IMG/VR virus record: IMGVR_UViG_3300045135_002002
Span: 1-30,298 of that record
Direction: 5' to 3' (one strand)
Length of the DNA stretch: 30,298 nt
Source: a virus
The position numbers and the translations under genes were made by a program. Of this stretch, positions 2 to 28,608 are shown one piece after another. The notes under the pieces are model-generated. The model ran no database searches. It was given only the letters and a program-made list of their open reading frames with translations, and was not told the DNA's origin. The stretch's first letter is position 1. Each line of letters begins with the position of its first letter.

Positions 2-52
2 GAAGAAGACTTCGTAGTTGAAGAAGAAGACTTCGTAGTTGAAGAAGAACCT
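2..52 (+). repeat. In-frame 21-bp tandem repeat encoding an acidic heptad
   Basis: A 21-bp unit encoding EEDFVVE occurs about two and a half times at the left edge, in frame with the RNA polymerase. The copies are almost identical at DNA level, which suggests recent expansion. It may continue to the left of the window. It probably codes for a flexible acidic linker between domains of the large protein. Confidence 0.8.
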
Positions 53-3000
53 GTTGTGGCTAAAGACGCTTCTGTACAAGAAATGTCTGACAATAAAGCT
101 GCACTTAAAGATGTTAAGAAACGTATTGCCGAACGTCGTGCAGAACTAAGAGCTCGTAATATTACAGGCAAAGCTCAGCTAGAAGATGCAGAGCTAGTGG
201 CGTTACTAGAGCAGAAGGCTGAGCTTGACGCTACTCGTAAAGGTTTTACTAGCAAGCTTAATGACCTTACTGCTCGTAGACTAGAAGCGTTAGGGGATCG
301 TAAAGACCGTAAATTTACTCTTTACGTAAGCTATGGTGATGGTGGCAAACCTGTTGAGACTACATTAGGTGAGTTGTTTAAGACTACAGTAGCCACCGGG
401 TTTACTATTACAGAACGTACTGCGAAAAATACCTTTGCATTTACTAAAAAGTTTGCAAATAAACTTTTAGAAAACATGAAGTTAACTGGTAAGTTCCCAG
501 TTCAGATGTTTAACAAAGTCCAAGATAACCCAGCAACCTTTCTGTTGTTCGATGATAATGGTGAGTTGAACTACAATACTGTTGAAGCAATGCAATCGGC
601 AGCTTACGAGTACCTAGTTCAAGAAGCTTCTAACTTAGGCGGTGCTAATCGTACTGATGAAGAAGTAGGTGAGCTAATTGGTATTCCTGAAGAGTATGTA
701 ACTCCTGAAATGACTAATGCGTTAGCAAAAGGTGGTATTACCCTTAAATTAGCTGCAGCTGCTATTGGCGACAAAGTTATTAAGAACCTTGGCTTGCAGA
801 TTGAGTCTGTACAGGATCGTGAAGCATTAGCTACTTCCTTGGGTATTGCTACTCTTGAAGGCATTAAAGGTGACTTTGTTCAGGGCTACAATTATATTCC
901 TAGCGAAGCAGAGCGTACACGTAAACGTTACCCTATAAAAGCTAAAAGCATTCCATTTATCATTGCCTCCCCTACCTTGTTTGATCGTATGCAAGCAATC
1001 AGAGATGCTAATGACGCAGTTGAGAACACTCTAGGCGTAGAGATTGATAAAGAACGTACGTACCGTACAGCTTCTAACGCTAAGCCTCGTAAGGTAATGA
1101 TTCACCGTGCTGAATATCAAGAAGCTCCTAAGGATCATGAAGCCGTAGCTAATCGTCTTGAGCAGACTGCTTTTAGTTTTAACAGCGGACACGAAGTTCT
1201 TATGGAGATGTTCTCTAAAGAAGGTGCCCTTGATGTTAAAGCCCTTATTGAACATATCCTTGGTTCGGAAAAAGACTTTACCAACTACGATGCAAGAGAA
1301 AGCTACAAAGCTCAAAAAGAAGCTTTGAAGCGTAGTCTTATGTTCTATCAAGAAGCGTATGATGATGTTAAAGATGGTGAAATGTTCTTTAACTGGTTTA
1401 TTGCTAAAAACCACCGTATCCACCTAGATAGTAACAGACTTAACCCCCAAAATGACAAGAATCTTGCGCGTTGGTTGGTTACTACGACAAATTCCAGAAC
1501 TACAGTTTCTAAAACAGATATCAAAGAAGTACTGGATGGAAATACAGATAACATGCAAGCTAAGATGTTTGCATACGCTGTAGTACAGGCATTTGATGGT
1601 GCTAAAGGTATTCCTGGGATTGATAAAGATAATGAAGCAGAAGTACTAGCCGCTGCTAAAAAGCTTCTTGAAGAGACTCCTGAAGGTGAACTATTTAAGA
1701 TGGCTATGGATGCAGGTCATTTGGGTCATGCGGCCTTAGCAATTGCTAATATTCGTAAGTACATGGACAACGATTCATTTGAATCTGACCTAGTTCTAGA
1801 GGTAGATGGACTTACAAATGGTTTCGCGTTCAGAGCAATGCAGTTCCCTGTAGAGTCTGAAAGCAGCCCTCTTAATCCAATGCAGTGGCTTGAAAAAGTA
1901 GGTGTTATTACTGAAGAGTCAGATCTGTTTGGTTTAAGCAGTATGAATGGCGCTAGAACAGCTGGTCAAGAAGACGTATATATTTCTGTAGGCGCTATGT
2001 TCAACCAGAACATTGCAGAAGCAAAAGATAACCTGAATGAGACAAGCGCTAAATGGGTAGCGTTGTTTGAAAAACACGGTAAACTTCCAGACTTTAGCGA
2101 CTCTAATAGCGCTGATGTTAAAAAGTTTATCCGTAATCTTATGAAGTCTCCTGTAATGATCTTTAACTACGCAGCAGGTCTTGGCCGTATTGCCGGGGGT
2201 CTGGTAAATGACCAGATCATGGGTAAAGGTTATTTAAAAGGCAAAGGCCTTGTAGATTTACTTACTGCTAAAGATGAAAACAATAACTATGTTCTTACTA
2301 AAAAAGAACTAGTTGGTTCTTTTGGTGAAATGCTGGGTAACAAATACCACAAAGCTCGTGTAGCTCTTCACGAAAACAGCCTAGATAGTACACGTAATGG
2401 TGATATTACAGTACTGAAAGCTCACCTAACTAAAGCAGTTAGTGGTTTGTACACAGAGTCTTTGACAGCTACGCTAGAAACTTTGTTTAGCAAACAGACT
2501 GTTATTAACAGTACGTTTGTAAACGCTGCTCAGTTTATGTTTGACCACTTTAAAGATCAGTACAGCTTGTGGTTACTTAAGAACCCAGAAGCTACAGATG
2601 AAGCTAAGCTTGAGTTCTTGAAAGATATGGCAGCTATCATCCCAGGTGTTGGGGCAGCTAGCTCTGATGACCAGATGAATAAGATTACTTTCTTAAAGAA
2701 TGTGCTAGAACCTACTAACAATGATGTTGTAGTAAATGTTGCTGGGCAACGTATTGCAGCAAACACCGTATCTCGTACATTTGGTGAACCAGGTGTTGGT
2801 CCTGCAGTGCTAACTGTGTTATCATTAGACTCATCTGTGTTAGCCAAAACAATTAACGAATCCTACAAAGGTGTGAAAGGTCAAGCAGCGCTTCCTATTC
2901 ACGATGCTATTGTTTTAGGTATCGATGAGCATGGCGTTATTAACTCTTATAACCGTAACTTCTATACTACTAATAGAAGCTACTCTATCTCAGAAGAGTT

Positions 3001-3370
3001 TGTACGAGCTATCGAAACTTTCGAACAGAGTGTACCTGGAGCGGCTGGTATGTCTATTATTGACATTGAAGGTAAACGTGTTACTTTCAGCGAGATGAAA
3101 GCTGCTTTGGCTCAAGCTAACAACGAAATTCAAACCAAACGTAGAGAGTTGTTTGGTAAAAATGTTAAGGTTGGTCAGCTAGTAGGTCCTGAAGGAACAA
3201 TGGAATCTTACGACGTAGCTAAAATGAAAGATATGTCGAAAGCTTACATGGCTAATGTAGCAACAAATATTTTAGAAAAATTTGGTAGTGATGATGTTAA
3301 GACTGCGCTGGGCAAAGATTATGCTAAGCACATGAAAGCAATTGCCGCTATGTTAGAAGGGTGTAAGTAA
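2..3370 (+). CDS. N4-type virion RNA polymerase, C-terminal part of a protein entering from the left edge
   Basis: The frame is open at base 2, so the true start lies outside the window; 1122 residues are visible. It carries the signature of single-subunit T7/N4 RNA polymerases in the right order. A DxxR motif (DSNRLNPQND) starts at 1427. Motif A (DGLTNGF) has its catalytic Asp at 1805-1807. Motif B (RNLMKSPVMIFNY) has Arg at 2132, Lys at 2144 and Tyr at 2168, with the R-x3-K-x7-Y spacing of T7 polymerase. Motif C (PIHDAIV) has its Asp at 2903-2905. As I recall, the A-B and B-C spacings are close to those of the N4 mini-vRNAP. In N4 this enzyme is packaged, injected with the DNA and transcribes early genes; that role is inferred here. 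An acidic repeat (2-55) precedes the domain and may be a linker. The stop overlaps the next ATG by one base. A GTG at 56 is in frame but is unlikely to be the start. Confidence 0.85.
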   Translation, partial: EEDFVVEEEDFVVEEEPVVAKDASVQEMSDNKAALKDVKKRIAERRAELRARNITGKAQLEDAELVALLEQKAELDATRKGFTSKLNDLTARRLEALGDRKDRKFTLYVSYGDGGKPVETTLGELFKTTVATGFTITERTAKNTFAFTKKFANKLLENMKLTGKFPVQMFNKVQDNPATFLLFDDNGELNYNTVEAMQSAAYEYLVQEASNLGGANRTDEEVGELIGIPEEYVTPEMTNALAKGGITLKLAAAAIGDKVIKNLGLQIESVQDREALATSLGIATLEGIKGDFVQGYNYIPSEAERTRKRYPIKAKSIPFIIASPTLFDRMQAIRDANDAVENTLGVEIDKERTYRTASNAKPRKVMIHRAEYQEAPKDHEAVANRLEQTAFSFNSGHEVLMEMFSKEGALDVKALIEHILGSEKDFTNYDARESYKAQKEALKRSLMFYQEAYDDVKDGEMFFNWFIAKNHRIHLDSNRLNPQNDKNLARWLVTTTNSRTTVSKTDIKEVLDGNTDNMQAKMFAYAVVQAFDGAKGIPGIDKDNEAEVLAAAKKLLEETPEGELFKMAMDAGHLGHAALAIANIRKYMDNDSFESDLVLEVDGLTNGFAFRAMQFPVESESSPLNPMQWLEKVGVITEESDLFGLSSMNGARTAGQEDVYISVGAMFNQNIAEAKDNLNETSAKWVALFEKHGKLPDFSDSNSADVKKFIRNLMKSPVMIFNYAAGLGRIAGGLVNDQIMGKGYLKGKGLVDLLTAKDENNNYVLTKKELVGSFGEMLGNKYHKARVALHENSLDSTRNGDITVLKAHLTKAVSGLYTESLTATLETLFSKQTVINSTFVNAAQFMFDHFKDQYSLWLLKNPEATDEAKLEFLKDMAAIIPGVGAASSDDQMNKITFLKNVLEPTNNDVVVNVAGQRIAANTVSRTFGEPGVGPAVLTVLSLDSSVLAKTINESYKGVKGQAALPIHDAIVLGIDEHGVINSYNRNFYTTNRSYSISEEFVRAIETFEQSVPGAAGMSIIDIEGKRVTFSEMKAALAQANNEIQTKRRELFGKNVKVGQLVGPEGTMESYDVAKMKDMSKAYMANVATNILEKFGSDDVKTALGKDYAKHMKAIAAMLEGCK

Positions 3371-5820
3371 TGGCTCAATGTAATATTGAAGGCACACTCA
3401 AGTATATTGAGGATGTCTACAAGCAAATACCTAGCGGTAAGGAAGATCGTGAAGCTAAGCAGGTTCTAAAGACCTTGTTTGACCAGATCAATACTAACCG
3501 TGCTACTATCCAGCAAGCAGGTAGCTTTGCGGGTAGTGCTCGTATCAATATTAACAAACCCTTTGAAGTGGTAGATTACACCCCTACCCCTGCTCCTAAA
3601 ACTACTCCCGAAGTTAAGGCTAAAACCAAAGTTAAAAGCCGTAAGTTTGGTGATGTAACAGCTTATTTTTACCCTAAAGGATCTAAAGAACTTAAAGGTG
3701 CTTTGGCATTTACTAGGTATGATGAAGACGGTAATCCTTTTATTGTAATGCAAGAAGGTATTACTAAAGACCAAGTAATTAGCTACTTGCGTGGTCAAGA
3801 TGGGTCTGAAACGTCAGTACAGAAGTCAGTAGTTAATGAATTCATGATGGACGTATATGGTGTAAACCTTATTGGTGAGCTAAACAAACTTAGTGATGCG
3901 GGTATTCGTCAGTTTATTATTAAGCATGAATTAAGTCATATCCGAAATGCGGATAAAGCTGATGTGTATTACGCTAATAAAGAGCAAACAATTGCTACCG
4001 CATTTGGCAAAGATAATAGTGAAAATAAATACTTAGCAGATAGCGCCGTTAGAATCGAAACTAGGGCTAACTTAGACGCATTAGAGCTTAACCTAGATAC
4101 GCTAGTGACCCCAGACTATGCTGCAGCAGCTGCAGACGATATGGTGCCTATTGAGAATACTCTAAACCCGTTAGTAGAAGACACCCCGCCTTGGGAAGAT
4201 ACCACCACTGTTGAAGAGGCAGCAGAGACCCTAGCTAACTACACTGTTACCGGTAACATGACTACTAACGAAGGCCAGACTAAAGCGATCAATACTATGA
4301 TCGATTGGTTTAAAGGTAATAAGTCTTCAACATTTATGCTGCAAGGCCGTGGTGGTACTGGTAAGACTACAGTTATTAACGTGTTGCTTCGTGAGTTAGG
4401 TATTAAACCTCATGAAGTTATGTTTGCTACTCCTACTAATAAAGCTAAGAAAGTAATTGCTGATGCAAACAAGAAAACTGCTTATGCTGGTAGTGAGTAC
4501 AATACTGTAGCGCAAATGTTGGGTATTAAACCTGTAATGGATAGTGACGGTAATCAGTCTTTCCAAGAAGATTTGTATGCCCAAAAACCTGATATCCCTA
4601 AAATCTTGATTGTTGATGAGGCTTCTATGCTTCACAGCGATAACTATGACGCACTAGTTTCAAGAGCTCAGGAATACGGTAGTAAGATTATTTTTATGGG
4701 CGATAATGCTCAGCTTCCTCCTATTGGTGATAGAAAAGCTCCGGTTAAATCTGTAGTGTTTGAAGATAATAAAGATACTACTATTGCGCTTACCCAGCTG
4801 ATGAGACAAGAGAAAGATTCTCCTATCATCAACATGACTAGTAAGTTAATTCGTGTTGTAGACAAAGTAGAAGCGTTTCTTGACTCAAAAGGATCTGATC
4901 AACAAGCCAAGCAAAGCTTAGCCCGTATTATTTTTGATGGTGCCAAGCTTGGCAAGTTCAACCCAATTAATAACGAAGGCGCTATATTCACAACAGAGAA
5001 CTTCGAAGCATTGCTCCCTAGTTTCCTGAGCGACTACCGTAAAAGTCCTAAAGGCACCAAGTACATTAGCTTTAACAACCATAGTCATTCATTTACCGTG
5101 CAAAAGACGCAAATGATTAGACGTGCTTTGTTTGGTGAAAAAGCAGATCAGGAAGCTTTTATTCCTGGTGAGCCTTTAATGCTTAACGGTCCCTACCAAA
5201 TTGATGTACAGGAAGAAAAACCTACATTCTTGGACAATGGTGAAGAGTTCACTGTTAAGTCTAGCCGTGTTGTAAGCAAGCGTGTAGACTACAAAGTAGG
5301 CAAGAAGACCATTAGAACTGCAGAACCTATTCAAGTGCACGAAATTGTTGCGGTTGATGCGGTTACAGGTGCAGAACATGTGTTTAATAAACCAGTGGGC
5401 AACAAAGAAGCCGTAAAAGCTTTTATTGAAAATGAAAAATCTAATGCGATAGCCAATGGCGTTAAGCCAGGTGGCGCGTACATGTTGATGAGTGTACTAG
5501 CCCAGGATCTGTCACACGGCTATATTATTAATAGCCACAGATCTCAAGGTAGTACATACGATAATGTGTACATGGACCTAGGTAATATTGCTGGCCAGCC
5601 TTATGCTGGGGCTAACGATATTATTAAGGCTTTATATGTAGCAGCGTCTAGACCACGTAAGAAATTAGTGGTAGTAGACAATAGGGGCGCAGCCAGCCAA
5701 ATTACTAATCCGAGCAAAGCAGCAAGTGCTGAAGCAAAACCGGAAGTGTTTGAAAATGTTGATAATGCTGAGGCAAATGATATAATTAACAAAATAGATA
5801 AGTGTAAATCAAAAGGTTAA
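3370..5820 (+). CDS. Zincin-like metallopeptidase fused to SF1B (RecD2/Dda-like) DNA helicase
   Basis: 816 residues. The N-terminal half has a zinc-peptidase signature, HELSH at residues 186-190, with a possible third ligand in the RIETRAN segment about 40 residues later. The C-terminal half is a superfamily 1B helicase: Walker A GRGGTGKTT (326-334), Walker B VDEAS (D416-E417), motif III GDNAQLPP (444-451), an LTQLMRQ segment, motif V SHRSQG (722-727) and motif VI AASRPR (758-763). Family knowledge predicts 5'-3' DNA unwinding and, for the N-terminus, peptide-bond hydrolysis. The ATG overlaps the preceding stop (TAATG), and the next gene begins 3 bases after its stop, so the three genes are probably translated from one late transcript. 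Inference: a virion-packaged, multi-domain ('polyvalent') protein rather than a normal replication helicase, because it sits inside the RNA polymerase locus. The helicase call is firm; the peptidase call rests on one motif. Confidence 0.8.
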   Translation: MAQCNIEGTLKYIEDVYKQIPSGKEDREAKQVLKTLFDQINTNRATIQQAGSFAGSARININKPFEVVDYTPTPAPKTTPEVKAKTKVKSRKFGDVTAYFYPKGSKELKGALAFTRYDEDGNPFIVMQEGITKDQVISYLRGQDGSETSVQKSVVNEFMMDVYGVNLIGELNKLSDAGIRQFIIKHELSHIRNADKADVYYANKEQTIATAFGKDNSENKYLADSAVRIETRANLDALELNLDTLVTPDYAAAAADDMVPIENTLNPLVEDTPPWEDTTTVEEAAETLANYTVTGNMTTNEGQTKAINTMIDWFKGNKSSTFMLQGRGGTGKTTVINVLLRELGIKPHEVMFATPTNKAKKVIADANKKTAYAGSEYNTVAQMLGIKPVMDSDGNQSFQEDLYAQKPDIPKILIVDEASMLHSDNYDALVSRAQEYGSKIIFMGDNAQLPPIGDRKAPVKSVVFEDNKDTTIALTQLMRQEKDSPIINMTSKLIRVVDKVEAFLDSKGSDQQAKQSLARIIFDGAKLGKFNPINNEGAIFTTENFEALLPSFLSDYRKSPKGTKYISFNNHSHSFTVQKTQMIRRALFGEKADQEAFIPGEPLMLNGPYQIDVQEEKPTFLDNGEEFTVKSSRVVSKRVDYKVGKKTIRTAEPIQVHEIVAVDAVTGAEHVFNKPVGNKEAVKAFIENEKSNAIANGVKPGGAYMLMSVLAQDLSHGYIINSHRSQGSTYDNVYMDLGNIAGQPYAGANDIIKALYVAASRPRKKLVVVDNRGAASQITNPSKAASAEAKPEVFENVDNAEANDIINKIDKCKSKG

Positions 5821-5823
5821 AGA

Positions 5824-8800
5824 ATGAGCTGCAGCGTCAGAGGTATTACAAATTCGGTTGTTTCTGAGAACAAAGATAAGACCGAAACAAACGTCCGTAA
5901 GGCACAGAAAAGCTCTGAAGTAGACAAGGCATTAGCTACGTCTACCCCTATGGCTATTCTTACTGAATTGGTTAAGCGCACTAAGCCAACTCTTGATGGC
6001 GAAAATGTGCATATCTTAAACATCTCTCGTAACGAAGATGATCAGTTTGTTCTTAAATTCAAAGTTGGCAAGAGCAGCGAAATTATTGAAATGGTTGCGG
6101 AAGATTTCTCGTCATTTATGACAGAAGCAGAAAACTTCCAATTAGACAAAAACCATTTAGAGCGTTTCCATTCAGACTTTGACTCTATCCATACTCATGA
6201 CGATTTTGAAGAGCTGGCGCTTGATATTACTAACAACCCTGAAAAGATTTTAGAGGTTGCTCAGTCCCTTATCGATGCAGACAATTACCACAATGATGGA
6301 GAACATAACCGAGTCTTGTGGGATCAGCTAGGCCTTATTACGAACTCCCTAGTTGAGATGGTACCTAACCTTAACGTGCATATTAATAATGCAGGTAAGG
6401 CTAATTTTGGTACTATTGATGTAAACACCAATGACATCTATATTGCTAAAGGTGTAGGTGGCTCTAAGAGTTTGATGGAAATATATGTCCACGAGCTTTA
6501 CCACGCCGTAACTCACTACGCAATCAGCAGCAAAGAAACTTCTGTTCGTAAAGATACTGCTCGTATTGAACAAGTACGTGAGTATTTCTTGGCTAACACC
6601 AAAGAGTCGGACTTAGTGCGTATGTCAGGGGGTAAGATTACCACTGAACAAGCAGCTAGTTTGCTGAACCATTTGACTAACCCAGAGGTTGGTCTTCATG
6701 AATTCGTAGCACTGGCTATGACTAACAAAGCTATTATGAATCAGCTTAAGACGTTAGACATTACACAAAAGCCAATGTTTACTGAAGCTTCTCTGTTCCA
6801 CAGAATCTTGGACGCAGTATACCGTATCTTTGGGTCTATTAGCCGTAGATTAGCAAATGAGCCAGAAGGTGATGATTTGCAGCGTATGGTATTCCTAGTA
6901 ACTAGGCTCCATACGGCTCACAAAAAACCGATGGAAGCTAAGCGTTTGCTTGGTATTCGTAACCTACTGTCAATCTTTAACCCTATTGAACGTAGATTTG
7001 TAGATTATGTAAATAAGAAGATTGAAGAAGGTAAGAAAGATATTGGCCGTAACGCACCTAAAGAGGGTGAGGGTAACGCCAAGTTCTACGCTAGACTAGC
7101 TGTAAGATCTTTTTACGATGATCAGGCCAGAGATATTATTGGTAATACTCTTAGCTTAGCTACGTTTAGAGGTGGGTATTCACCATTCGCACCTGAAGGT
7201 ACCGTACGCACTATTTTAAGAGATTCTTTTGAATCAGATATGACCCAGGACCAGGTTGAGGCCCAGGGTATGATTTCGCAGAATATCGACCAGCAGCGTG
7301 AGTTTAGAGCTATCCAGACTGCTGAAGTAATTCTAAAAAGTTTTAGTCGTGATTTGACTGAAGAAGAAGAAATTGCACTAACAGATACGGTACTGGATAC
7401 CGATTTATCTGCAATTTACTACAACTATGATGTTGCTTCTTTATTGGAAGACAATAACAATATCCGAAAAGCAGAAGACGCCGTAATTAAAAAGTTAAAA
7501 GCTTTAACTGATGGTGAAAGTGTAAACTTTTACGAGGCTCAGACTGAACTGTTAGCTGCTTACATGATTCAAGGTACTGATAATATTGCGTTGCTATTGA
7601 ATGCAGATAACATTGCTAAGAAGCTTGATACTGTTAATGAAGATCTGAACGTGTCTAAAGAAATTATTAATCTAGTAGACGAACTCGCTAGTTTAAAAGC
7701 TCTTAGACGTGTCAATAAAAAACAAAAAGCTACTTTACGTAAGCTCATTGATGAAGAAGCAGGCGGTATTGATAACTTAGTAGCATTCCAATTTGGCCAG
7801 AAAGAGTATGCGGAACGTGAAGTGTTCCCAACTATGACTGATAAAATGAAGATTATTAAAGGTTACTCTGCTCAAATTACTGATCCAGATATTGATGTAA
7901 CCATTGCCCCTGTATCAAAACAGGCTGAGCTTAAAGCACAAGGTTTTGTACTTAAGAAGACCCTAGTTAAGCATAACATGGATGGTAATAAGACCCCAAT
8001 GGCTCTGTATGTAAATAACAGATTCATTAGTCAAAGATTCCATAGAGTTGGTTTGAGAATTACGGACAAAGCCCGTAGAGGTACTACTGTAACGGAAAGC
8101 TACAGTATGGGTAGTGACAGTAACCCTACATTAAAAGCTGCTGCAGACATTCGTAAAATGCGTGAGCGCCGTGCTGAAGTGGTTAAGCTTATGATGAGCG
8201 GCCAGTATAAGGCCGAGGATGTGGAAAGTGATGGCTTAGTAACACCAAACCTAAACAATAGTGGTCGTGTTAAGGACTTCCGTTATGGTATGGATAAACA
8301 AGTTAAGCTTGATATCTTAGATATGGAACGGAAAGTAAGTACCGTCATGGGACGTACTGCGGCATCTACTTACGATAAGAAAGCTACAGACAACTTTAAC
8401 AAACAGTTGCTAGATCTTATTGTACAGGATGCAACCGATAACCTGAAGCCAGGACAGGTTAGCGTTATTGGTAAAAACCAAAAAGAATATATTAAAATCG
8501 AAAAGAATTCGCTTAATAAACAAGTTGCTGATTTGTGGAGAATTTTACCAGAAGCGGTGAAGAAAGAGTTCCCAGAAGGGTTTACTCTTAGAAGAGACTT
8601 GATGCACTCGTACCTAGGTTACAGGGAAATGAGTATTACGGATATTCCTGTTCTTAAAGGATTCCTAGAGACTAACCCTAGAGCTTATAAAGCAGCTATC
8701 AAGTATGCATTACAGTTTGCTGAAAAACTGTGGCAAGAACTAATTAAGATATCTAAAGCAGATATCATTATCAGAACACCAGGCGTATTCATTGGCAATG

Positions 8801-9612
8801 TAGTTAGTAACTTCATGCTAATGTATGTGTCAGGGTATTCATTTAAAGAAATTACAAGATTAAAATATCAGGGAGTGAAGGAGCTTAAGTTGTATGTAGA
8901 CGGACTAAAAGAGTCTCTACAGCTAGAAGCTAAAGACAACGCTGGTATCTTGACTGTTACAGAAAGAAGACGCCTTAACGTTATTAAAAACAACTTAATT
9001 AATAGCCCAGTAAAAGACCTAGTTGATGAAGGTTTTTACACTACTATTATGGAAGAAATGGAGCATGGGAGTGACTCAGGAAGTTACTTCAATAAACTAG
9101 CTAAGAAGAAGCTACAGAAAGTTCCTAAGATTTTTAGTGACGGCGTTGATTTACTTTATATTACAGAGAACACAAAGTTATTCAAGCTTATTGAGAAAAG
9201 CATCCAGGCGTCTGATTTTGCTGCGCGTTACGCTCAGTATCACCTGATGATTGAGAAGGGTGTTAAAAAAGAAAAGGCTGTTAAGATTGTGCGTGATAAC
9301 TTTATCAACTACAACAAACCTAACAGCCGATTTATGGAATGGGCTAACCAAATGGGCTTTGTAATGTTTACTAAGTACTTTACACGTATTCAACGAGTAA
9401 TTCGTGACTACGGTAAAAACCATCCTGCTAAAGTAATGCTTTCGATTCTTGCACAGGATTATGTCTTAGGCGATATTGATGACTTTACAGATCAATCAGT
9501 ATTAACTAAAGACATGGGTAACTTATTCTACAACCCGTTTGATAACCTACTCCGAGTAATTACCCCAACCTCAGCCGAAGCTGTAGATTGGGTGTTAAAC
9601 GGTGGACGTTAA
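5824..9612 (+). CDS. Giant probable virion protein with N-terminal zincin-like domain
   Basis: 1262 residues. The N-terminal third contains HELYH (residues 223-227) followed by an HEFVALA segment (292-298), whose Glu fits the third zinc ligand of gluzincin-type peptidases. The remainder, about residues 370-1262, is rich in charged helices and matches no family I can name by eye. A stretch near 980-1000 (TPGVFIGNVVSNF and following) is the most hydrophobic part. The start follows an AAAGG-like ribosome-binding sequence, 3 bases after the helicase gene. Its place as the last gene of the + strand block, where N4 encodes the C-terminal encapsidation domain of its virion RNA polymerase, suggests it may be the detached equivalent of that domain. 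This is inference from position only. Its stop overlaps the stop of the convergent gene. Confidence 0.65.
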   Translation: MSCSVRGITNSVVSENKDKTETNVRKAQKSSEVDKALATSTPMAILTELVKRTKPTLDGENVHILNISRNEDDQFVLKFKVGKSSEIIEMVAEDFSSFMTEAENFQLDKNHLERFHSDFDSIHTHDDFEELALDITNNPEKILEVAQSLIDADNYHNDGEHNRVLWDQLGLITNSLVEMVPNLNVHINNAGKANFGTIDVNTNDIYIAKGVGGSKSLMEIYVHELYHAVTHYAISSKETSVRKDTARIEQVREYFLANTKESDLVRMSGGKITTEQAASLLNHLTNPEVGLHEFVALAMTNKAIMNQLKTLDITQKPMFTEASLFHRILDAVYRIFGSISRRLANEPEGDDLQRMVFLVTRLHTAHKKPMEAKRLLGIRNLLSIFNPIERRFVDYVNKKIEEGKKDIGRNAPKEGEGNAKFYARLAVRSFYDDQARDIIGNTLSLATFRGGYSPFAPEGTVRTILRDSFESDMTQDQVEAQGMISQNIDQQREFRAIQTAEVILKSFSRDLTEEEEIALTDTVLDTDLSAIYYNYDVASLLEDNNNIRKAEDAVIKKLKALTDGESVNFYEAQTELLAAYMIQGTDNIALLLNADNIAKKLDTVNEDLNVSKEIINLVDELASLKALRRVNKKQKATLRKLIDEEAGGIDNLVAFQFGQKEYAEREVFPTMTDKMKIIKGYSAQITDPDIDVTIAPVSKQAELKAQGFVLKKTLVKHNMDGNKTPMALYVNNRFISQRFHRVGLRITDKARRGTTVTESYSMGSDSNPTLKAAADIRKMRERRAEVVKLMMSGQYKAEDVESDGLVTPNLNNSGRVKDFRYGMDKQVKLDILDMERKVSTVMGRTAASTYDKKATDNFNKQLLDLIVQDATDNLKPGQVSVIGKNQKEYIKIEKNSLNKQVADLWRILPEAVKKEFPEGFTLRRDLMHSYLGYREMSITDIPVLKGFLETNPRAYKAAIKYALQFAEKLWQELIKISKADIIIRTPGVFIGNVVSNFMLMYVSGYSFKEITRLKYQGVKELKLYVDGLKESLQLEAKDNAGILTVTERRRLNVIKNNLINSPVKDLVDEGFYTTIMEEMEHGSDSGSYFNKLAKKKLQKVPKIFSDGVDLLYITENTKLFKLIEKSIQASDFAARYAQYHLMIEKGVKKEKAVKIVRDNFINYNKPNSRFMEWANQMGFVMFTKYFTRIQRVIRDYGKNHPAKVMLSILAQDYVLGDIDDFTDQSVLTKDMGNLFYNPFDNLLRVITPTSAEAVDWVLNGGR

Positions 9613-15197: not shown

Positions 15198-17003
15198 CTA
15201 GAGGGAACTTAGGGCTTTTTCAATATCCTCAATAGAGGCTCCATTAGGAATACGTACCATTTCTGCCCAGTTGTAACCAATGTCGCTTTCTGCTTCATTG
15301 TGGATAGTTTGATCTTCCATAAAATCAACTAGCATAGCAGCAATTAGGTTATCATTAACCCACTTGATAATACTAGGATCTTCAGTTACTTCGATATAGA
15401 TAGAATCATAGATGGTTGAAATGACTTTTACATCATGTTCTAAACCTTCTTGGTCTATCAACTGGTGCATTTTATTAATAGTCAGTGCGGTCAATATAGA
15501 CCAGAACTGACAGGTAGCATTTGCTAACGTTCTGATATCTCTATCAGCGTCATCGGTTTTTAGACTGAAGCCAAGACCTAGGTGTATTTCACCATGTTCT
15601 TTAGCAGTAGGTAGTACATAATTTTCACGATAATCTGTAATACCTGGGTACAGTACATTATGGTAGTTGTTAAAGATTTCTTCAGCTTCTTCTATGGGGA
15701 TTTTCAAAGTAGCTGCAATCTTTGGAGGAAAGGCACCGTAGGCTAAACCAAAGGTTGGTCCTTTAGACTCCTGACGTAGTTTATCTGCGTCTGCGTTTCC
15801 TTCATCTACCAGTTTCTTGAAGTTCATGGTATCAGTGGGAGTATCCCCAGTGAGCGGCATAAGAGTTTTGATCTTGTCGTGAAAATAACCCAACGCATTT
15901 AGGGAGTGACCATCCAGATTTTTTAGAAATATGTCACATTTGTTGGTGTCACGAGACAAAGATGCAATAACTCTATCTTCTAGAGCACTGTAATCTGCTG
16001 TTAGAATAATGGTACCTGGAGGTGCAGTAAAGCACTTCTTAACAGGTTTAGCAAACCTAGATCCTGTTGACGGCGCATTGAGCATATTTGGGTTAGAGCT
16101 AGTAAAACGGCCAGACTTAGCTCCTAAAAGCTTGTACTGGCCATAAAGTCGACCATCTACACTGTAATTGTAAAAAGCTTCAATGAAGTTATTTTTAATA
16201 ATTGCAGCAAAAGAATAGTCAATGAAACATTGAGTGAAGTGCCTCACATCTTCATCATCTGTTTCTTTATTTACACGTTCTACTTGGGCCCTATCCCACT
16301 TGGGCAGTCCTGTCTCCTTAGACGTTGCTTCTGACTCAATTCCAAGCATGTCAAACAATTCTTGTTTCTGTTTAGAAGATCCCGGATTAAATGTCGGGAA
16401 TGGTACTGTCGGCTGCTTCACTTGTTCAACGTATTTTTCGTTGTACATCCTAGCTTTGTCTTCTGCTAGACGTTGCATAGCAGTGACTATAGCTGGAGTG
16501 TTAGCCGGTATAGTTCCATCGAGCAACATTTGGAGAAGCCTGTTTGACTTAGCATATTTTTTAACTAAGTTTACAGGCCACTTACCTACTCCTGTTGGGA
16601 GTTTTTCGTCAGGACTGCCCCATCCCTGAACCTTTGCATATTCATCCATAAAATAACTTCTATGGTTCATGTCATTAGGTTTAAAGGGGACTAAATAATA
16701 ACTAGGGTCACGCATTTTAGACTTACGGTCTTCAATGTATGCTTTTATTTCATTGGCATATCGAGACTCTAGATATTGTTTAATAATAGGGTTAGCAGCT
16801 AGTTCTGTTTCTACCTCAGCAAGCTGCTCAGCTAAGGTTTCCTCCAATTCAATTACTTTATCAATATCGATATGGAGACCGTTGTCCATAATACGTACAG
16901 TATCTTTAATCAAGTACTTAGCCGTATTTTGGTAGAAATGCCCTAATGGGTATTCCGTAAGCCGAGGCTCTGGGGCTGGTAATTGATCATGTGGGCTGTA
17001 CAT
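15198..17003 (-). CDS. DNA polymerase family A, polymerase domain only
   Basis: 601 residues with the palm and fingers motifs of Pol I/T7 enzymes. GRFTSSNPNMLNAPS lies near residue 298. Motif A is ADYSALEDR with catalytic D337. Motif B has R410, K414, F418 and Y422-G423, spaced exactly as in Pol I. Motif C is IYDSIYIE with D533, where most family members have HDE. The first 280 residues are thumb-like and lack any exonuclease motif; the 3'-5' exonuclease is encoded two genes upstream as a separate protein. Together they total 824 residues, a normal size for a phage Pol A. The start has AGGAAATAAT before the ATG. It replicates the phage DNA. Phe at 418 predicts discrimination against dideoxynucleotides. 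Confidence 0.92.
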   Translation of the reverse strand: MYSPHDQLPAPEPRLTEYPLGHFYQNTAKYLIKDTVRIMDNGLHIDIDKVIELEETLAEQLAEVETELAANPIIKQYLESRYANEIKAYIEDRKSKMRDPSYYLVPFKPNDMNHRSYFMDEYAKVQGWGSPDEKLPTGVGKWPVNLVKKYAKSNRLLQMLLDGTIPANTPAIVTAMQRLAEDKARMYNEKYVEQVKQPTVPFPTFNPGSSKQKQELFDMLGIESEATSKETGLPKWDRAQVERVNKETDDEDVRHFTQCFIDYSFAAIIKNNFIEAFYNYSVDGRLYGQYKLLGAKSGRFTSSNPNMLNAPSTGSRFAKPVKKCFTAPPGTIILTADYSALEDRVIASLSRDTNKCDIFLKNLDGHSLNALGYFHDKIKTLMPLTGDTPTDTMNFKKLVDEGNADADKLRQESKGPTFGLAYGAFPPKIAATLKIPIEEAEEIFNNYHNVLYPGITDYRENYVLPTAKEHGEIHLGLGFSLKTDDADRDIRTLANATCQFWSILTALTINKMHQLIDQEGLEHDVKVISTIYDSIYIEVTEDPSIIKWVNDNLIAAMLVDFMEDQTIHNEAESDIGYNWAEMVRIPNGASIEDIEKALSSL

Positions 17004-17011
17004 ATTATTTC

Positions 17012-17272
17012 CTAGACTAATATTTCTGGAGCAAACTTTTTAGCAGCTGCCACCAGTTCGTAGTATTCATCACTAAGATCGTCAAATGCCGTTTCTAGCT
17101 CTTCTTTTTCTACGAATAATTCAGAAAAGTACTGTCTTATATCACAGAAAGGACAATAGCATGTGGTAAATGCTATAAATGGGTGAGCATCATCACAGTA
17201 GTAGAATTTGTTATCATATTCTCTTTGATCAAATACTTCAAACTCCTGATTTGTATTCTCTGATGAACTCAT
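17012..17272 (-). CDS. Small acidic protein with CxxC knuckle, between exonuclease and polymerase genes
   Basis: 86 residues. Two cysteine pairs can be seen: FYYCDDAH early and CYCPFCD at about 38-44, so a zinc-binding knuckle (C-x2-C plus another Cys/His) is possible. A charged helix, KEELETAFDDLSDEYYEL, follows. The start overlaps the end of the exonuclease gene by 35 bases and has GGAG seven bases upstream, so translation is coupled. It lies exactly where the polymerase is split, so a role joining the two parts is conceivable, but this is inference only. Confidence 0.6.
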   Translation of the reverse strand: MSSSENTNQEFEVFDQREYDNKFYYCDDAHPFIAFTTCYCPFCDIRQYFSELFVEKEELETAFDDLSDEYYELVAAAKKFAPEILV

Positions 17273-17909
17273 TCAAATACTCCCATAGTTTATAAGTAGC
17301 GCAAGCATCAATAGCAGCATATTTAATTACATGCTCATCATACTGTTGTTCTACTGTAAAGTTGTCTGCAGAGATCCCCCAGTCACCATACCAGTGTCCT
17401 GCTAGATCCTTTAGACCAGTAGCAGCTTTAAACACTTCTACATGGTTGACTAAAGTCTTTGCAAATATTTGGGTATCTTCCACGTTCTTAGCATCTTTTA
17501 ACTGGTAATACCTCAAGAACCTTCCGTCATAGGCATAGTTATGCCAGACTTGGGTTCTATCGGTATCTGTTAAAAAGTCTAAGACTACATCAGCAATTTC
17601 TTGTGCGTCAATAATGAACACGTAAGCCTCTCTTTCAGAGTAGGCAATGCTACAATGAGTAATGGTACAATGAGAAGGATGACCTAATGCTGATGATTTT
17701 GCTATAGCTTGGTATGCAACACGTTCCTTTTTAGGTAACGTTTCGTCTACCATTTTTTGCTTAGCCTCTTCTATAGTTTCTTTATCATAACGAACAGCAG
17801 TCTCGAAGTCGGCAGAAAATACTTCGGGTAGGTTATTCAGCCATTCTTTAGCTGTTTCTGGATCGTTAGTACTTTGGTACTGTACTTCAATACTGTGTTC
17901 TACTTTCAT
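17238..17909 (-). CDS. Stand-alone 3'-5' proofreading exonuclease of the DNA polymerase
   Basis: 223 residues with DEDDy exonuclease motifs: Exo I SADFET (D34, E36), Exo II NYAYDGRFL (N124, D128) and Exo III KYAAIDACATY (Y197, D201). VEDTQIFAKTL (D146) matches the conserved substrate region of Pol I/RNase D exonucleases. The Tyr at Exo III marks the DEDDy subgroup, as in Pol A proofreading domains. It is cotranscribed with the polymerase domain and probably supplies its proofreading in trans. The ATG lies 9 bases after the stop of the UvrD-like gene, whose stop codon is part of the AGGAA ribosome-binding sequence. It could alternatively act alone on single-stranded ends. Confidence 0.88.
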   Translation of the reverse strand: MKVEHSIEVQYQSTNDPETAKEWLNNLPEVFSADFETAVRYDKETIEEAKQKMVDETLPKKERVAYQAIAKSSALGHPSHCTITHCSIAYSEREAYVFIIDAQEIADVVLDFLTDTDRTQVWHNYAYDGRFLRYYQLKDAKNVEDTQIFAKTLVNHVEVFKAATGLKDLAGHWYGDWGISADNFTVEQQYDEHVIKYAAIDACATYKLWEYLNEFIREYKSGV

Positions 17910-28133: not shown

Positions 28134-28382
28134 TTAGGCTGCTATAAATTTAGCCTCAATGTCTTTTTTAGACATCATACCAATAGATGTGGTAACAGGC
28201 TCACCTTCTTCATCAATAAGAATTAAGGCTGGTACACCACGTACGCCATACTTAATAGCTAGTTCCATATTTTCATCAATGTCTACTGGAACAACATCGT
28301 ACGGAAATTCAATGTCTTCCATAGTTTTAGAAAGCATTTTACATGGATTACACCAAGTAGCGTGAAATTTAAGCAATTGCAT
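28134..28382 (-). CDS. Thioredoxin-like protein
   Basis: 82 residues. The redox motif is WCNPCK, and the cis-proline loop is GVPAL, as in thioredoxin, with an HATWC strand before it. At 82 residues it is shorter than E. coli thioredoxin (about 108): it begins directly at the strand before the active site, so the N-terminal strand-helix of the fold appears missing. The likely role is to reduce the C-terminal Cys pair of NrdA. The ATG at 28382 is preceded by AGAGG; a TTG eight codons further up is a poorer choice. It overlaps the preceding gene by 14 bases, and its stop lies just 5 bases from tRNA-Leu. Confidence 0.85.
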   Translation of the reverse strand: MQLLKFHATWCNPCKMLSKTMEDIEFPYDVVPVDIDENMELAIKYGVRGVPALILIDEEGEPVTTSIGMMSKKDIEAKFIAA

Positions 28383-28608
28383 ATTTTTTAACCTCTTTAA
28401 GTTCAAGCCCTGAAAGCTTATAAATACATGGAGGGAATGCTAGATTAACAGCTTCCCAACAAAAAAATTCTAATGTTCCATTAACTACGGGGATTTTGTT
28501 TTCTGGAGTTTCGTGTTCTGACTCCCAAACATGTTTTTCTCGGTTACGATAAGGCGTAGTAAACCATAAGTACTCGCCGGTTAAATCCCAGGTTAAGTAA
28601 CATTCCAT
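28369..28608 (-). CDS. Small protein of unknown function
   Basis: 79 residues from the ATG at 28608 (MECYLTWDL), preceded by AGAGAA and 13 bases after the stop of the previous gene. A start at 28674 would add 22 residues but overlaps that gene by 53 bases. The sequence is rich in aromatic residues (WDLTGEYLWF and FFCWEAVNLAF), suggesting a compact beta domain. The C-terminus ELKEVKKYAIA overlaps the thioredoxin start. No family is recognised. Confidence 0.55.
   Translation of the reverse strand: MECYLTWDLTGEYLWFTTPYRNREKHVWESEHETPENKIPVVNGTLEFFCWEAVNLAFPPCIYKLSGLELKEVKKYAIA

Follow-up and report, generated by a model that had tools for sequence, protein, structure and literature searches.

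A split N4-type virion RNA polymerase locus with an inserted helicase gene and cysteines at the facing ends of its pieces

The virus contig IMGVR_UViG_3300045135_002002 (IMG/VR), whose entire 30,298 bases were analyzed and are here called the window, carries at its left end an N4-type virion RNA polymerase (vRNAP) that is split into separate proteins, with a helicase gene inserted between the RNA polymerase (RNAP) domain and the C-terminal domain (CTD). The three proteins contain cysteine only near the ends at which they face each other. From this sequence pattern we consider it probable that the split pieces are coupled end to end, with disulfides as the likeliest link, and so make up a single chain for injection. 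With a little less confidence, we lean towards a wider rule for two groups of tailed phages with unrelated vRNAPs, the N4-like and the crAss-like: their ejected giant proteins would avoid cysteine except at inner ends, where a reversible disulfide would couple the pieces, open in the host cytoplasm and admit modules such as the helicase. Should the bond be confirmed, this principle of cysteine linkage would be new; we found no description of terminal cysteines in ejected proteins in the open-access literature.

Three genes of a divided polymerase

Three long open reading frames (ORFs) run rightward from the left end of the contig.

2–3370, + strand: gene 1, catalytic domain of an N4-type vRNAP, the C-terminal 1122 residues of a longer protein (PHROG 2206; N4 mini-vRNAP fold)
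3370–5820, + strand: gene 2, Dda-like superfamily 1 (SF1) helicase of 816 residues with an HExxH motif in its N-terminal region (matches to a Dda-like profile and to the T4 Dda fold)
5824–9612, + strand: gene 3, N4 gp50 CTD, zincin-like C1 plus C2, 1262 residues (PHROG 2206; N4 gp50 in PDB)

Genes 1 and 2 overlap by 1 base (TAATG) and genes 2 and 3 are 3 bases apart. The initial annotation had described such a trio, with the first frame ending just after the catalytic domain, and both the ORFs and the matched ranges of PHROG 2206 (virion RNA polymerase) confirmed this: gene 1 aligned to profile positions 963–1925 of 3406 (E 1e-58) and gene 3 to positions 2334–3388 (E 5e-143). The similarity of gene 3 to the CTD of N4 gp50, which that annotation had proposed to check, was also found against the C-terminal part of the N4 gp50 chains in PDB (E 2e-24). 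A typical N4-type vRNAP is one polypeptide of about 3000–4000 residues; the window has three genes in its place. Gene 1 is open at the contig edge, and the N-terminal domain that anchors N4-type vRNAPs in the membrane would lie beyond the window; in a relative, L021, the first ORF has at least 2352 residues, compared with the 1122 left here. The contig begins (positions 2–50) inside a repeated, low-complexity EEDFVVEEE linker, which may explain the assembly break and the absent N-terminal domain.

The likeness of gene 1 to the N4 polymerase in PDB was recovered by fold search and not by sequence search. Its AlphaFold model (predicted local distance difference test, pLDDT, 80) matched N4 mini-vRNAP over about 1060 columns, nearly the full length (E 5e-23); neither phmmer with gene 1 nor a profile built from 16 relatives retrieved an N4 polymerase from the PDB sequences, where the one weak match was a repeat protein. 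The five catalytic residues named for the N4 enzyme (PMC2784036) served to assign their counterparts in gene 1, all of which are invariant in the alignment of the 16 relatives. Motifs in the three genes are as follows.

1406–1420, + strand: motif T/DxxGR of gene 1, KNHRI, with Arg 472 (invariant, 16 relatives)
1799–1822, + strand: motif A of gene 1, EVDGLTNG, with Asp 602 (invariant, 16 relatives)
2144–2170, + strand: motif B of gene 1, KSPVMIFNY, with Lys 715 and Tyr 723 (invariant, 16 relatives)
2894–2908, + strand: motif C of gene 1, PIHDA, with Asp 968 (invariant, 16 relatives)
3925–3939, + strand: HELSH, zincin-like motif of gene 2 (motif alone)
4345–4371, + strand: helicase Walker A of gene 2, GRGGTGKTT (invariant in four copies)
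4609–4626, + strand: helicase Walker B of gene 2, IVDEAS (motif)
6490–6504, + strand: HELYH of the zincin-like C1 domain of gene 3 (homology to N4 C1; motif)

Judged by these motifs and by its fold, gene 1 is a single-subunit N4-type RNAP domain with intact catalytic residues. Gene 2 is a Dda-like SF1B helicase, with Walker A, Walker B and the Dda fold all present: it matched Dda-like helicases in a profile search (E 1e-71), and T4 Dda was the best PDB match for the helicase part of its model. This model is poor overall (pLDDT 51) and gives no usable structure for the N-terminal, HELSH-bearing region. Since HExxH occurs in both, genes 2 and 3 encode putative zincin-like metallopeptidases; for gene 3 the fold assignment comes from homology to the C1 domain of N4 gp50, which has an HExxH motif itself (PMC12633501).

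Cysteines are confined to the facing ends

N4-type vRNAPs are known to lack cysteine, which is thought to aid injection (PMC3715699, PMC2784036, PMC3915230, PMC4837373). Among 50 unsplit, non-redundant vRNAP ORFs, some of them cut by contig ends, we counted 3 cysteines in 158,284 residues, all in TTG-started extensions (L040 and L067) that probably lie upstream of the true start. The window departs from a cysteine-free vRNAP: its trio holds four cysteines in 3200 residues, all at the two junctions and none elsewhere.

3362–3364, + strand: junction 1, upstream side, Cys 1121 of 1122, the sole cysteine of gene 1 (invariant in 16 relatives)
3379–3381, + strand: junction 1, downstream side, Cys 4 of gene 2 (invariant in four copies)
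5803–5805, + strand: junction 2, upstream side, Cys 812 of 816 of gene 2 (invariant in four copies)
5830–5832, + strand: junction 2, downstream side, Cys 3, the sole cysteine of gene 3 (invariant in 13 aligned relatives)

These junction cysteines, absent from the initial annotation, are the most telling feature of the locus. Across the 18 non-redundant genomes with a split vRNAP, every one of 23 junctions has a cysteine at most six residues from the upstream C-terminus and another at most six from the downstream N-terminus. (A limit of five residues in our script had missed L001 and L021, where the helicase cysteine is sixth from the end, and had scored both as internal.) The split set contains one internal cysteine in 66,030 residues (L027, residue 1031), and the outer ends of the chains have none. 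Inserted pieces, namely the helicase and a 408-residue protein in contig L106, carry cysteine at both ends and none inside. The residues flanking the junction cysteines vary freely while the cysteines stay invariant. For comparison, a set of 193 other genes from phages of this kind had a cysteine rate of 0.98%; 3.1% of them have a cysteine among the first six residues and 6.2% among the last six.

The same pattern in crAss-like phages

A search with the helicase led to giant ORFs whose last part is a Dda-like helicase with a terminal cysteine; the gene that follows has a cysteine at residue 3–6, and many of the giant ORFs match proteins of crAss-like and Flavobacterium phages. In Cellulophaga phage phi14:2, for instance, the only cysteines are at position 1797 of 1797 in g067, at 3 and 2179 of 2180 in g066 (the RNAP) and at 3 in g065. 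In crAss001, gp47 ends in RCNS; gp50, which starts with MSKRC, has one internal cysteine and its last one at 2404 of 2412; and gp49 starts with MAKKC. The gene for gp47 lies on the opposite strand to gp50, yet the facing-end cysteines are kept. The RNAP proteins of phi14:2 and crAss001 have been reported as separate virion proteins. Mass spectrometry identified crAss001 gp47, gp50 and gp49 all as virion cargo, and inter-subunit disulfides were seen in the portal vertex and tail of this phage (PMC10172136). The terminal cysteines recur in FpV4, DAC15, cr126_1, cr60_1, cr55_1, cr118_1, LMMB and crAss002, with cut sites that differ between crAss-like families. Two contigs are about 80% identical in a shared giant protein: L004 has a break with a cysteine pair (NECGI / MSC), while in L005 the frame continues into another domain and no cysteine stands at that place. 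In crAss002 gp33 (L130:12151–24888) there is no cysteine near the annotated start; the likely start, MSC, lies 32 residues later, so that the annotated protein is probably 32 residues too long. Two homologues of crAss gp49 made too thin a profile to be of use.

These proteins resemble the trio in being giant, cysteine-poor, packaged in the virion and furnished with facing-end cysteines, and some carry a Dda-like helicase as well. Their RNAP, however, is a two-barrel enzyme with a DxDxD motif (PMC7886860) and not N4-like. As it is of another type, independent use of the same solution appears likely. In T7 (L136), gp15 and gp16 have no cysteine in 2065 residues and gp14 has one, at position 2; cysteine avoidance may be general for ejected proteins.

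A proposed linked chain and its alternatives

What we infer, rather than observe, is that this virus packages all three proteins, that they are bonded, that the host reduces the bond and what the helicase does. The single ejected chain of an N4-type vRNAP was divided at a flexible linker, where a helicase was then placed, and the linked chain would read RNAP-Cys~Cys-helicase-Cys~Cys-CTD. Such a chain would behave as one polypeptide while in the virion, in the tail and in the oxidising periplasm, so that the rear pieces could be threaded behind the front piece. The reducing host cytoplasm would then open the bonds and free the helicase. The N4 CTD inhibits the RNAP, and the N4 enzyme is specific for single-stranded template (PMC12633501). 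Opening of the link could therefore release the polymerase from an inhibitory CTD and switch it on, and the helicase could perhaps supply the polymerase with the single-stranded template it prefers. The proposal of the initial annotation that the injected set would also pull in and open the incoming DNA is hypothetical.

The closest alternative, which we regard as unlikely, is metal binding by the paired cysteines, or a non-covalent docking site of which they are part; the complex would then be packaged and ejected without a disulfide. One cysteine per side at facing ends would suit such a site, as would the predicted helices next to the cysteines (residues 1106–1118 of gene 1 and, at low confidence, 4–19 of gene 2). 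Yet no conserved histidine, further cysteine or acidic partner stands near them, and the flanks vary freely. Moreover, cargo proteins are held in published work to unfold at least partly to pass the tail, and non-covalent contacts alone may thus fail to hold the pieces; a docked complex would probably fall apart there.

Slightly less plausible still is that the terminal cysteines tie each piece to another virion protein, or to a second copy of itself, and not to the next piece. The disulfides between other virion proteins of crAss001 lend this some credit, as do a few terminal cysteines without a visible partner. It sits poorly with the finding that split vRNAPs have cysteines only at ends facing the neighbour in the ancestral chain, never at outer ends, and that the pair is absent where pieces are fused. 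Gathering by drift in flexible tails that tolerate cysteine we consider very improbable: tail sequences do vary, but both sides have the residue in all 23 junctions, the free outer ends lack it whether a chain is split or not, and it stays invariant while its neighbours change. That split inteins or some other enzyme ligate the pieces into a single protein has hardly any probability, even though crAss-like phages are rich in inteins (PMC7886860) and cysteine is used in protein splicing: with at most 5 to 8 residues beyond each cysteine there is no space for an intein half, split-intein halves are accordingly absent from the facing ends, and an N-terminal cysteine at position 3–6 is not exposed by removal of methionine.

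Several points weigh against the disulfide-linked chain. The bond is deduced from a sequence pattern. Virions are assembled in a reducing cytoplasm and the hosts of crAss phages are anaerobic, which leaves the moment of oxidation unclear; and since all ends have the same chemistry, the avoidance of wrong partners is left without explanation. The 23 junctions are not independent because many descend from one split, and the underlying events are few (one ancestral split, the arrival of the helicase, that of the L106 gene, and L079, described below). Two crAss proteins, LMMB QIN93289 and FpV4 ALN97143, have an unpaired terminal cysteine; both are encoded upstream of RNAP genes (L132:1539–4124, residue 860 of 861 in LMMB; L099:3797–5593, residue 5 in FpV4). 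Finally, some gut crAss proteins have internal cysteines, indicating that avoidance is weaker in these phages.

If true, the linked chain would bear on two open questions, how phages force very large proteins through a channel of some 35 Angstrom and how they keep to an order when ejecting several of them. It would explain the cysteine avoidance of vRNAPs, make ejected cargo recognisable from sequence alone and show which giant proteins share one chain even when their genes lie apart. The cysteine code offers a concrete answer that is testable in the cultured phages phi14:2, crAss001 and AD45.

The split is old and the helicase came later

The break in the Alteromonas phage AD45 (Efbeekayvirus) has been taken for a gene-calling mistake or readthrough, and the vRNAP of Shigella phage pSb-1 was called as three ORFs (PMC10654107). 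That the break is unreal, a product of readthrough, frameshifting or sequencing or gene-calling error, is nevertheless barely credible for the split set. The three-gene arrangement with a helicase occurs in three other contigs (L001, L021 and L022; gene identities to the window 36–62%) and the split without a helicase gene in 14 further non-redundant genomes, so that neither chance nor an assembly error can account for it. The relatives emerged from queries with alignments; when viral contigs were scanned with gene 1 or gene 3 as a single sequence, no relative was confirmed. Where relatives have no gene between RNAP and CTD, the two ORFs overlap by at most 11 bases or are at most 26 bases apart, in varying frames, and each downstream ORF has its own start codon, mostly preceded by a purine-rich stretch. 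Elsewhere whole genes lie inside the gap, and in crAss001 the pieces presumed to be linked are on opposite strands. Errors of this kind do exist: apparent splits in L014, L069, L113, L117, L124 and L125 were rejected as frameshift-like errors. L113 and L117, inspected base by base, are frameshift errors, and the other four break inside domains (L014 near an N); none of the six has a cysteine at the break.

We conclude that the split is old and real. In a tree of 74 non-redundant CTDs, all RNAP/CTD splits fall in one deep clade that includes AD45, with 23–62% identity to the window. The claim of the initial annotation that an ancestral giant vRNAP was split is thereby supported. The break falls between the RNAP match and the CTD match; its position maps only approximately to N4, where gp50 has a linker of 23 residues (residues 2102–2123) that is invisible in the structure (PMC12633501). 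A probable second type of split was seen in L079 (2–958 and 6278–13444), between the N-terminal domain and the RNAP, with unrelated genes between and cysteines at both facing ends. The upstream ORF, otherwise cysteine-free, ends in ECNV and the RNAP ORF starts with MACEINK; breakage at this other linker is probable, although BLAST found no match of the upstream piece to other N-terminal domains.

Insertion or replacement by a helicase had both been proposed. Insertion is upheld: in the CTD tree the window, L001, L021 and L022 form a helicase-bearing subclade within a larger split clade whose other members lack the helicase, which identifies this gene as a later insertion at the split. Replacement is not, because RNAP and CTD are both complete. 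The four divergent helicase copies (816–1010 residues, the three others 36–45% identical to that of the window) have no internal cysteine, as in other ejected proteins, whereas the UvrD-type helicase of the window itself has six; injection of the gene 2 helicase is thus indirectly supported. At the same RNAP/CTD site, L106 (8298–9524) encodes the 408-residue protein mentioned above, of unknown family and with no Pfam match, whose only cysteines are at 3 and 407. In L014 (4781–12112; contig shared with L037), a DprA-like domain and a Dda-like helicase are fused between RNAP and CTD without any cysteine. Here a Dda-like helicase and an N4-like vRNAP have come together a second time, separately, on another branch of the tree; L014 shares the placement of the helicase with the window, but helicase and RNAP are one chain.

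Relation to N4 and AD45, and neighbouring genes

The locus shares with N4 gp50 (Schitoviridae) the RNAP fold and catalytic residues, the C1 domain with HExxH, the C2 domain and the adjacent leftward replication genes. It differs in consisting of three proteins with facing-end cysteines, whereas gp50 is one chain of 3500 residues with no cysteine and no helicase. AD45 belongs to the same split clade and has a similar neighbouring gene order; its RNAP ORF ends in HCKQ and its CTD ORF starts with MTIC, but no helicase gene lies between them and the break is annotated as a potential frameshift.

Facing the trio are leftward genes for a Clp-like protease, ribonucleotide reductase, DNA polymerase, a separate exonuclease, a UvrD-type helicase, Sak4-like and RIIA-like proteins, primase and thioredoxin. 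Much of this order is also found after the vRNAP region of AD45. A scan for promoters showed no excess. DNA polymerase I is split as well, into a polymerase (15198–17003) and a 3'-5' exonuclease-like protein (17238–17909), which are likewise separate in AD45. The thioredoxin-like protein (28134–28406) has a CNPC motif, adjoins a tRNA-Leu gene and possibly serves the ribonucleotide reductase.

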